Part shown: positions 15,262 through 23,651 of the stretch, piece by piece | How the letters are laid out: the number at the start of each line of letters is the position of its first letter | How positions within the stretch are numbered: position 1 is the stretch's first letter | NCBI RefSeq assembly: GCF_039645985.1 | Contig: NZ_CP147919.1 | Coordinates: forward strand, 2,232,001-2,296,000 | DNA: 64,000 bases | Source: Sulfurimonas sp. HSL3-7 | GTDB taxonomy: Bacteria; Campylobacterota; Campylobacteria; Campylobacterales; Sulfurimonadaceae | Direction of reading: 5' to 3' | Program-made: the position numbers and the translations under genes | Notes under the pieces: model-generated | What the model was told of the DNA's origin: nothing | Databases searched by the model: none | What the model saw: the letters and a program-made list of their open reading frames with translations, nothing else

Positions 15262-15346
15262 TGGTGCGCACGAGAGGATTTGAACCTCCACACCCGTAAG
15301 GCACTACCCCCTCAAGGTAGCGTGTCTACCGTTCCACCACGTGCGC
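15262..15346 (-). tRNA. tRNA-Leu (anticodon GAG)
   Basis: An 85-nt class II tRNA including an encoded CCA. The acceptor stem pairs GCGCACG with CGTGCGC, discriminator A. The anticodon loop is TTGAGGG inside the stem CTACC/GGTAG, giving GAG. The T arm is GGAGGTTCAAATCCTC and the long variable arm marks it as Leu. It reads CTC/CTT codons. It is 52 bases downstream of atpE on the same strand, after a hairpin. Confidence 0.97.
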
Positions 15347-21390: not shown

Positions 21391-22656
21391 CTAGAGTGCT
21401 TGGTAGGCGATATCGGTACGTAACTTCTTACCGGCAAAATGGACCTGACCGCAAAGTGCGTAAGCACGATCCCGCGCTTCACGGATCGTATCACCAAGGC
21501 CCACGCAGACAAGTACCCGCCCGCCGTCAGCATAAAGTATACCGTCTTCTTCACTGACACCGGCATAAGAGATATGGGTGTGTTCTTTAATATCTTCATG
21601 CACGATCTCATCAACAACGATCTCGGCAGGCGGCGTTGAACTGTACGGGTAATCTTTACTTGCCATAACAACGCCGACAGCATACTCGTCTGAAAATTCC
21701 ACATTCAGTGTATCAAGCTGTTTTGTCGCTGCTTTATAAAAGAGTTCGGAAGCAGGTGTTTTGAGAAGCGGCATCAGAATCTCACACTCCGGATCACCGA
21801 ACCGGACATTGAACTCCAGTGTAATAGGCTCACCGTTGACCACCATGATACCGATAAAGAGGACACCCTCAAAAGGTGCGCCCTCGGCTTTCATCCCTTT
21901 AAGTGTCGGACGGATAATACGCGCTTTAACCTTCTCATACAAGGTATCATCGACAAGCGGTGTCGGCGCATACGCCCCCATCCCGCCTGTATTCGGTCCC
22001 TGATCACCATCCAGAAGGCGCTTATGGTCTTGGGCGGCTTGAAGCAGGATAAAATCATCCCCATCACAGATAGCGAACATAGAGAGTTCATAACCGTCAA
22101 GAAACTCTTCTACGATGACCTTCTTGCCTGCGTCTCCGAAAGCTTTACCACTGAGCATCTCGCCGACTGTTTTTTTCGCTTCATCGTGGGACTGGGCGAT
22201 GATAACCCCTTTACCGGCACACAGACCATCCGCTTTAACAACAATCGGCGTCGGCAAGGTCTCAATAAACTTATAGGCGGCTTCGATGTTGTCCGTTTCA
22301 ATGTAACGTGCTGTCGGAATGTCATATTTCGCCAAAAAGTTTTTCATATAGACTTTTGAACCCTCAAGCTGCGCTGCCTCTTTGCTCGGGCCAAAAATTG
22401 TCAGCCCTTTGGCCTTAAAGATATCGACGACGCCGTCGACAAGCGGTGCTTCCGGCCCAACGATCGTCAGATCGATCTTGTTCTCGATCGCAAAATCAGC
22501 CAATGCATCATACTCTTTGATACTAAGATTTTCACCCAGTTCACGTGTCGCGCCATTGCCTGGCGCAAAAAAGAGTTTCTCAACTGCTTCATCTTTTTTC
22601 AGGGCACGCCCGATAGAGTATTCGCGTCCGCCGCTGCCTAGTACCAATATGTTCAT
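21391..22656 (-). CDS. purD: Phosphoribosylamine-glycine ligase PurD
   Basis: Second step of purine synthesis: joins glycine to 5-phosphoribosylamine using ATP. The 421-residue ATP-grasp protein begins [16 protein letters not shown], then GNGAT, a [12 protein letters not shown] stretch, the ATP-grasp loop [14 protein letters not shown], and [10 protein letters not shown]. The metal-binding [10 protein letters not shown] is near 290. It heads the purD-RDD-lptD-PRTase-pnp run. A probable 6S RNA is encoded just upstream on the same strand. Confidence 0.96.
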
Positions 22657-22737
22657 CTTAACTCCAAATATGATCGATCAAAATTTTTATAAAAACAGAC
22701 ATTGTACATTTTAATAAAAATTCAGGAAAACCTTAAT

Positions 22738-22942
22738 GGACTCTTCAAGAAGTCCGAGTGGCCGGTCCGCACTAAGCTTTGGTTCTCAAAGCCGAAAAAA
22801 CAGCAAAGTGAGTGTTCCATCAGGCCGCAATCTCTCTGGTTTGACCCATCAAACGAGACCACCGCACACAAGAACATCTACAGCATTCACAAAAAGAAAA
22901 TGTAGAACCCTCATAATTGCGAGAAATCGCACCACCCAGGCT
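22738..22942 (-). ncRNA. ssrS: Probable 6S RNA
   Basis: The minus strand has a TATAAT box at 22955-22950, so transcription should begin near 22942. From there to about 22756 (187 nt) the RNA folds as a rod about a central point near 22847: terminal hairpin GTTTGA-TGGG-TCAAAC (22854-22839), then TGTTC/GAACA at 22876-22872 and 22817-22813, GGTTCT/AGAACC at 22909-22904 and 22786-22781, and end pairing GGGTGG/CCACTC at 22937-22932 and 22761-22756. All pairs are symmetric about the centre. A local hairpin GCTTTG-AGAAC-CAAAGC sits in the 3' central region. Length, rod shape and position beside purD fit 6S RNA, the sigma-70 RNA polymerase regulator. A hairpin at 22755-22738 may end transcription. 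Confidence 0.68.
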
Positions 22943-22949
22943 AATTAAT

Positions 22950-22955
22950 ATTATA
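22950..22955 (-). promoter_or_regulatory. -10 box of the probable 6S RNA
   Basis: TATAAT on the minus strand, preceded by a T-rich stretch (CTGTTTTTG) as is common upstream of Campylobacterota -10 boxes. It may also serve purD by read-through. Confidence 0.6.
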
Positions 22956-22994
22956 CAAAAACAGAGCTTTTTCGGGGCTAAATCGAAAGCCCAT

Positions 22995-23651
22995 TTAGAA
23001 GGTCTGTAAGAGTTTTTCAGCCAATAAGACAGATGCATCGACAGTCGGAAGATCAGGCATATGATATTTTATGTTTTCAGGCAATGCTTTTGCCGTCGTC
23101 TTTCCGATCACGACAACTTTATAACTGGATTTAAAGCTAAAGAGCGTCATAAAACAGGCTATCGTCAACGGTGACGTGAAGACGAGTATTGCATTGTCAG
23201 GAAGTTCGATATCTCGGCACGCATCATTGCAATAGGTTTCATAGACAATGATATCGTCCATGTGAACACCGGCTTGTTTCACATGTTCTTTAAAATCTGA
23301 GGCGACCACTGCAGGACGGGGATACAGCCAGCGATATGAAGCGTAATTGTCTATAATGATATCCGTCAGAGAGTCGCCGTACCCTTCCCCTTTTTCAAGC
23401 AGTTCCCCTCCCGCTTTTTCGACCGCATAAGCAGTCTTGGAAGCGACACACAAAGCAGGCAGCACTTTCCAGTTTGAAGAGATCTTTTCCAAAGCCGTGA
23501 CTGCCTGTTTGGATGTCAATACAATAGCATCATATGCGCTGAAGTCTATCACCGGCTGGAAAAAACGGGTCGCTAAAATAGGGATGTGTGTTACATGGGG
23601 ATGTGAAGTCGTGGAAAAAAGAAAGATGGCGTTTTTACTATCTTGCGTCAT
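22995..23651 (-). CDS. hemD: Uroporphyrinogen-III synthase HemD
   Basis: HemD closes hydroxymethylbilane into uroporphyrinogen III in haem synthesis. The 218-residue protein has the family's two-lobed pattern: YDAIVLTSKQAV (TSxxAV near residue 44), LCVASKTAYAVEKAG, YGDSLTDII, WLYPRPAVVASDF, DIIVYETYC, ILVFTSPLTIACF and VVIGKTTAKAL. Its composition matches the genome, so it is the more likely housekeeping enzyme of the two HemD-like genes here. It lies upstream of the 6S RNA and purD on the same strand. Confidence 0.9.
   Translation of the reverse strand: MTQDSKNAIFLFSTTSHPHVTHIPILATRFFQPVIDFSAYDAIVLTSKQAVTALEKISSNWKVLPALCVASKTAYAVEKAGGELLEKGEGYGDSLTDIIIDNYASYRWLYPRPAVVASDFKEHVKQAGVHMDDIIVYETYCNDACRDIELPDNAILVFTSPLTIACFMTLFSFKSSYKVVVIGKTTAKALPENIKYHMPDLPTVDASVLLAEKLLQTF

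Follow-up and report, generated by a model that had tools for sequence, protein, structure and literature searches.

The window that we analysed, a 64,000-nucleotide stretch of the genome of Sulfurimonas sp. HSL3-7, raises the question of what is encoded between hemD and purD. 6S RNA is a small RNA that mimics an open promoter and restrains RNA polymerase, and a first-pass annotation had proposed it for this place. We conclude that the locus is very probably the 6S RNA gene of this Sulfurimonadaceae bacterium, with a sigma-70-type promoter, an end before purD, a fold that mimics an open promoter, and release of the polymerase through product RNA synthesis. The features on which this reading draws are listed here in the direction of transcription.

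22995 to 23651, minus strand: hemD, the upstream gene (PF02602, E 8.9e-27)
22950 to 22955, minus strand: perfect -10 box TATAAT of the predicted 6S RNA promoter, read from the sequence
22752 to 22942, minus strand: probable 6S RNA gene, its ends placed from the -10 box (5') and from the conserved closing stem (3')
22928 to 22939, minus strand: closing stem, 5' strand (pairs with 22754-22764)
22919 to 22921, minus strand: second short helix (helix 2), 5' strand (pairs with 22768-22770)
22905 to 22909, minus strand: P2, the downstream duplex (helix 3), 5' strand GGUUC
22875 to 22904, minus strand: 5' side of the central bubble, flanked by helices 3 and 4; the product RNA probably starts here, as judged from C. 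jejuni
22815 to 22874, minus strand: apical arm with the terminal hairpin (22844-22848 with 22837-22841), helices 4-6 of the covariation test
22775 to 22793, minus strand: 3' central-bubble hairpin GGCUUUG-AGAAC-CAAAGCU (local fold -7.4 kcal/mol)
22781 to 22785, minus strand: P2, 3' strand GAACC (pairs with 22905-22909)
22754 to 22764, minus strand: closing stem, 3' strand (pairs with 22928-22939)
22752 to 22881, minus strand: match to the Rfam "purD RNA motif" RF01069 at 65.1 bits (E 4.8e-10; cut-off 41), covering the 3' two thirds of the RNA
22681 to 22723, minus strand: weak, A+U-rich hairpin, a possible terminator between the 6S RNA and purD (-6.3 kcal/mol; stronger in relatives)
21391 to 22656, minus strand: purD, the downstream gene (TIGR00877, 496.6 bits)

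The RNA unit lies on the minus strand, as does purD, and its 3' end near 22752 is followed 95 nt further on by the purD start codon (22656). Among named genomes, the nearest PurD relatives are from Helicobacteraceae/Sulfurimonadaceae metagenome bins, followed by Sulfuricurvum and Sulfurimonas. The -10 box noted in the first pass is an exact TATAAT at 22955-22950 on the minus strand, and the +1 is inferred at about 22942, 7-8 nt past it. The RNA would thus be 191 nt long with a 3' end at 22752, or 187 nt, the length originally given, with an end at 22756. Directly 5' of the RNA, 71 of 80 loci have an exact TATAAT, versus 10 of 1407 control slices; for loci from named genomes the figures are 74 of 75 versus 19 of 1523. 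In 66 of 72 named loci (three of the 75, with gaps shorter than 45 nt, were left out), the gap that separates the RNA from purD contains a hairpin of -8 kcal/mol or lower, compared with 15 of 72 mononucleotide-shuffled copies. The median energies are -15.75 and -5.6 kcal/mol, respectively, and several named loci have T tracts directly after the hairpin. With TATAAT on its 5' side and a hairpin before purD, the unit therefore looks like a transcript of its own.

The complementary ends reported earlier (22939-22928 with 22754-22764) form a closing stem, and the complementary blocks described as symmetric about a central hairpin correspond to nested pairs that enclose a single apical hairpin (22844-22848/22837-22841). 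Complementarity within one sequence is weak evidence because the fold energy is unremarkable: with a z of -0.9, and with 34 of 200 shuffles folding at least equally well, it lies within the range of chance, and single-sequence folding was rejected as proof of the rod. We instead used an alignment (A1) of 57 loci extended to full length, out of 80 fetched (L001-L080). RNAalifold recovered the rod from A1 unaided, with 38 consensus pairs, of which 36 entered the covariation test, the weak pairs between columns 168-169 and 179-180 having been left out beforehand. Over these 36 pairs, 92.9% of cells in the 57 homologues are paired, versus 76.1% after shuffling and 39-45% with slid partners; the covariation score is 0.604, versus 0.287 (shuffled) and 0.12-0.18 (slid). 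None of 500 shuffles equalled the rod on any measure. Two-sided changes were found in 29 of the 36 pairs, a count of changes and not of events, as the rows of A1 are often related. The closing stem (helix 1) is paired in 96.5% of cells, with two-sided changes in six pairs, and P2 in 98.6%; all five P2 pairs are kept in 55 of the 57 rows, and the other two (L043 and L071) keep three. A second alignment, A2, of 19 of 21 rows from the window's family, yields a rod of 48 pairs. The rod with its closing stem, central bubble and apical hairpin is kept by covariation, which had been put forward at the outset as a test that might break it.

Some loci depart from this plan at the apical end. Most of the apical hairpin is missing from L080 (537-708), and the RF01069 match spans only 107 nt in L081-L083; the apical arm seems to be partly dispensable in some lineages.

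A full-length model, R1, was built from A1, most of whose 57 rows come from genomes that were later searched. In the window it matches 22945-22752 (170 bits, E 1.1e-43; the window sequence is part of the training alignment). Of 298 phylum genomes, 294 yield one R1 copy each, and 58 of 59 genera are represented; four near-complete phylum genomes (G007, G174, G274 and G283) have no match at E<=0.01. Searched with filters off against 784 bases of E. coli, R1 placed the annotated ssrS first (11.5 bits, runner-up 2.9 bits), matching 301-479 of a gene annotated at 301-484; the match is weak and its E-value of 9.1e-4 is rough. The plan of E. coli ssrS is common to the window RNA.

The RNA was located by R1 upstream of purD in 75 of 80 named loci found via purD (L090-L169). 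In three of the remaining loci the stretch that precedes purD is too short for the RNA (29 nt in L127, 37 nt in L131 and 256 nt in L140). The other two, L143 and L168, have enough space, and R1 finds no RNA there. In both of these, a Sulfuricurvum bin (L143, 700-1200) and Candidatus Sulfurimonas ponti (L168, 200-660), a TATAAT is kept before purD. In a separate set, purD is downstream on the same strand at 59 of 60 loci; linkage counts lean upward in both sets, since L001-L060 are the best-scoring matches and L090-L169 were located through purD itself. At L034 (1501-1630, minus strand) purD is absent and the RNA is flanked by an FBPase gene (PF00316) and by a divergent gene for a formyl-transferase (PF00551, purN-like), so that it still adjoins a purine-pathway-like gene. 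Downstream of E. coli ssrS (L089, 301-784) is fau, a gene of one-carbon metabolism. A position of 6S RNA genes beside genes for purine or folate metabolism may be a recurring feature, also in distantly related groups.

Only two matches exceeded their cut-off when the window was scanned against Rfam 15: a tRNA (15265-15346) and RF01069, which at 65.1 bits is well above the 41 required. A single RF01069 copy is carried by 282 of 298 phylum genomes and by 34 of 41 relatives, and 14 control genomes have none. The model begins about 60 nt inside the RNA, and neither the closing stem nor P2 has its 5' strand in it. Rfam 15 assigns it the type Cis-reg. The mislabelling as a purD regulatory motif arises from this type and from the missing strands.

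The 6S model RF00013, which the first-pass annotation had named as a check, did not match anywhere in the window's genome, even at E values as high as 10, and a permissive Rfam scan of 22600-23060 gave no 6S match. Matches to mir-232 and VrrA in the permissive scan were disregarded, being far below cut-off. The identical RF00013 search is positive in E. coli, B. subtilis and others. None of the 298 phylum genomes exceeds its curated cut-off of 46.4 bits, which is a threshold of the tool and not a property of the RNA. At E<=1 there are seven matches in these genomes, and all seven lie on an RF01069 match; under one of them (L085, RF00013 E 0.96) the RF01069 match is itself sub-threshold, at 26.6 bits. 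Full-length RF00013 matches below cut-off, at the same locus and on the same strand, were found in two of 15 loci scanned (L035, 33.9 bits; L037, 29.4 bits). They were also found in five of eight loci that were scanned because RF00013 had pointed there (L081, 38.2; L082, 35.1; L083, 31.4; L084, 29.8; L086, 31.6 bits). In 40 relatives, three matches were recorded at E<=10, one of them on an RF01069 match. Two matches off RF01069 (L087 and L088, E about 1.5) were taken as chance. RF00013 was rejected as sole test of 6S identity, as it is blind to the window's genome. We take its sub-cut-off result to be a limit of the model, because, on the strength of transcripts and product RNAs, 6S RNA is reported at this place in C. 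jejuni and H. pylori. R1 on ssrS, weakly, and RF00013 on relatives show homology to a proven 6S RNA.

The link between 6S RNA and purD in other Campylobacterota, raised with some doubt in the first pass, is indeed published. In C. jejuni, a 185-nt transcript upstream of purD is the most abundant non-coding RNA after rRNA and tRNA and is read as 6S RNA. It begins further upstream than the "purine riboswitch" described earlier, and has a 13-nt product RNA (PMC3847290). The same text assigns the corresponding region upstream of purD in H. pylori to 6S RNA (PMC3847290), and a review notes validation of this RNA by northern blot (PMC8322730). The C. jejuni and H. pylori RNAs and the window RNA are alike in their site before purD, length class, rod with central bubble and own sigma-70 promoter (PMC3847290); they differ in sequence. 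The original 6S reading is thus supported by RF00013 on relatives, R1 on the window and on ssrS, covariation, and the published relatives. The analysis thus shows a promoter box, a covarying rod with conserved P2 and hairpin, a single copy throughout most of the phylum, and homology to 6S RNA; the promoter box and the downstream hairpin make the RNA look like a separate transcript.

The Cis-reg label corresponds to an explanation in which the RNA is the purD 5' UTR, a leader or riboswitch sensing a metabolite of the purine pathway. The same-strand position of purD at 59 of 60 loci would suit a leader, as would the short distance from the RNA 3' end (median 78 nt in the named loci). However, the conserved unit extends about 60 nt further 5' than the Rfam model and starts directly behind a -10 box, and in most loci the RNA is set apart from purD by a strong hairpin, which in many cases has a T run after it. 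Nor is the RNA always in a purD 5' UTR, given that L034 carries it without purD, whereas L143 and L168 carry purD without it. The C. jejuni RNA is moreover discrete, 185 nt long and highly abundant (PMC3847290). We consider a cis-acting leader very improbable. Less probable still is a small protein. The 70-codon plus-strand frame that was pointed out in the first pass is present and open (22736-22948) and covers the 6S RNA region, but it has zero matches in NCBIfam and Pfam, and conservation tracks base pairing on the opposite strand.

An RNA with two roles deserves more weight, although we regard it as doubtful: 6S RNA acting in trans, with some read-through into purD, so that release of polymerase and purine synthesis would rise together. 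It is compatible with the 6S RNA explanation, and our confidence in the two overlaps. The persistent synteny with purD, the position of E. coli ssrS likewise before the one-carbon metabolism gene fau, and the weakness of the window's own hairpin before purD (-6.3 kcal/mol) are in its favour, whereas most relatives have strong hairpins at this place.

As a 6S RNA, the transcript would be made from its own sigma-70-type promoter and would end before purD. By analogy with the family, the rod and central bubble would mimic an open promoter and thereby bind the housekeeping (sigma-70) holoenzyme. When nucleotides are plentiful, the polymerase would copy a short product RNA from the 5' side of the central bubble (22904-22875) into the P2 5' strand. 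This synthesis would open P2, the 3' central-bubble hairpin would form or tighten, and the polymerase would be released. In E. coli, P2 opens during product RNA synthesis and the 3'-P2 strand joins an extended 3' central-bubble hairpin, which drives release (PMC8876501). B. subtilis 6S-1 has a short hairpin on the 3' side of the central bubble that is able to form ahead of product RNA synthesis (PMC8876501).

The P2 3' strand is placed differently in the window's family and in the remainder of A1. In the 36 A1 rows outside the window's family, this strand doubles as the 3' arm of a local hairpin, and in 33 of the 36 four or five of its five nucleotides are able to pair either way. The sharing of this strand between P2 and the release hairpin resembles that of E. 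coli ssrS (PMC8876501). Shared bases vary together with both partners. Given in the order P2 partner, shared base, hairpin partner, the bases at column 198 are G/C/G in 27 rows and A/U/A in seven, the A-U variant being confined to one group of seven rows. At column 199 they are G/C/G in 29 rows and A/U/A in three, and at column 197 U/G/C in 29 rows and U/A/U in four.

In the window, by contrast, the P2 3' strand lies mostly inside the loop of the 3' central-bubble hairpin. P2 is GGUUC:GAACC in all 75 named rows of the window's family, versus GAUCC:GGGUC in the L002/L007 group of A1. In most named rows, GAACC gives at most its last base to the local stem and the rest is in the loop: one base is in the stem in 45 rows, two in five, four in two, and none in 23, a class that includes hairpins and possibly also rows without one. 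P2 and the hairpin could coexist in the Sulfurimonadaceae as a loop-strand pseudoknot. Folding of the 191-nt RNA gives a minimum of -58.9 kcal/mol without constraint, -58.5 when constrained to the rod, and -57.5 when P2 is opened in favour of the hairpin. The states are about 1 kcal/mol apart and the energies therefore do not choose between them. The window's family may resemble B. subtilis 6S-1, with a hairpin before product RNA synthesis. We suggest, tentatively, that 6S RNAs of Campylobacterota act as a bistable release switch with two forms, one of the E. coli type, in which the P2 3' strand is a hairpin arm, and a loop-strand pseudoknot in the Sulfurimonadaceae with a different route of release. 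The two arrangements were not found described in the 6S RNA literature on Epsilonproteobacteria, Campylobacterota and Sulfurimonas or on the central bubble and product RNA, as represented by the accessible parts of PMC3847290, PMC8322730, PMC3656092 and PMC8876501, with subscription journals mostly outside this coverage.

6S RNA at purD is already known from C. jejuni and H. pylori (PMC3847290), and the window RNA is a further member. Automatic annotation would name the locus a purD cis-regulatory motif, or leave a gap. That gap is settled here, as RF00013 at its cut-off misses 298 of 298 phylum genomes and the full-length R1 recovers 294. The interest of the locus thus lies in a misnamed and truncated Rfam family and in the comparison of central regions, where the two arrangements constitute a comparative test of how 6S RNA frees polymerase.
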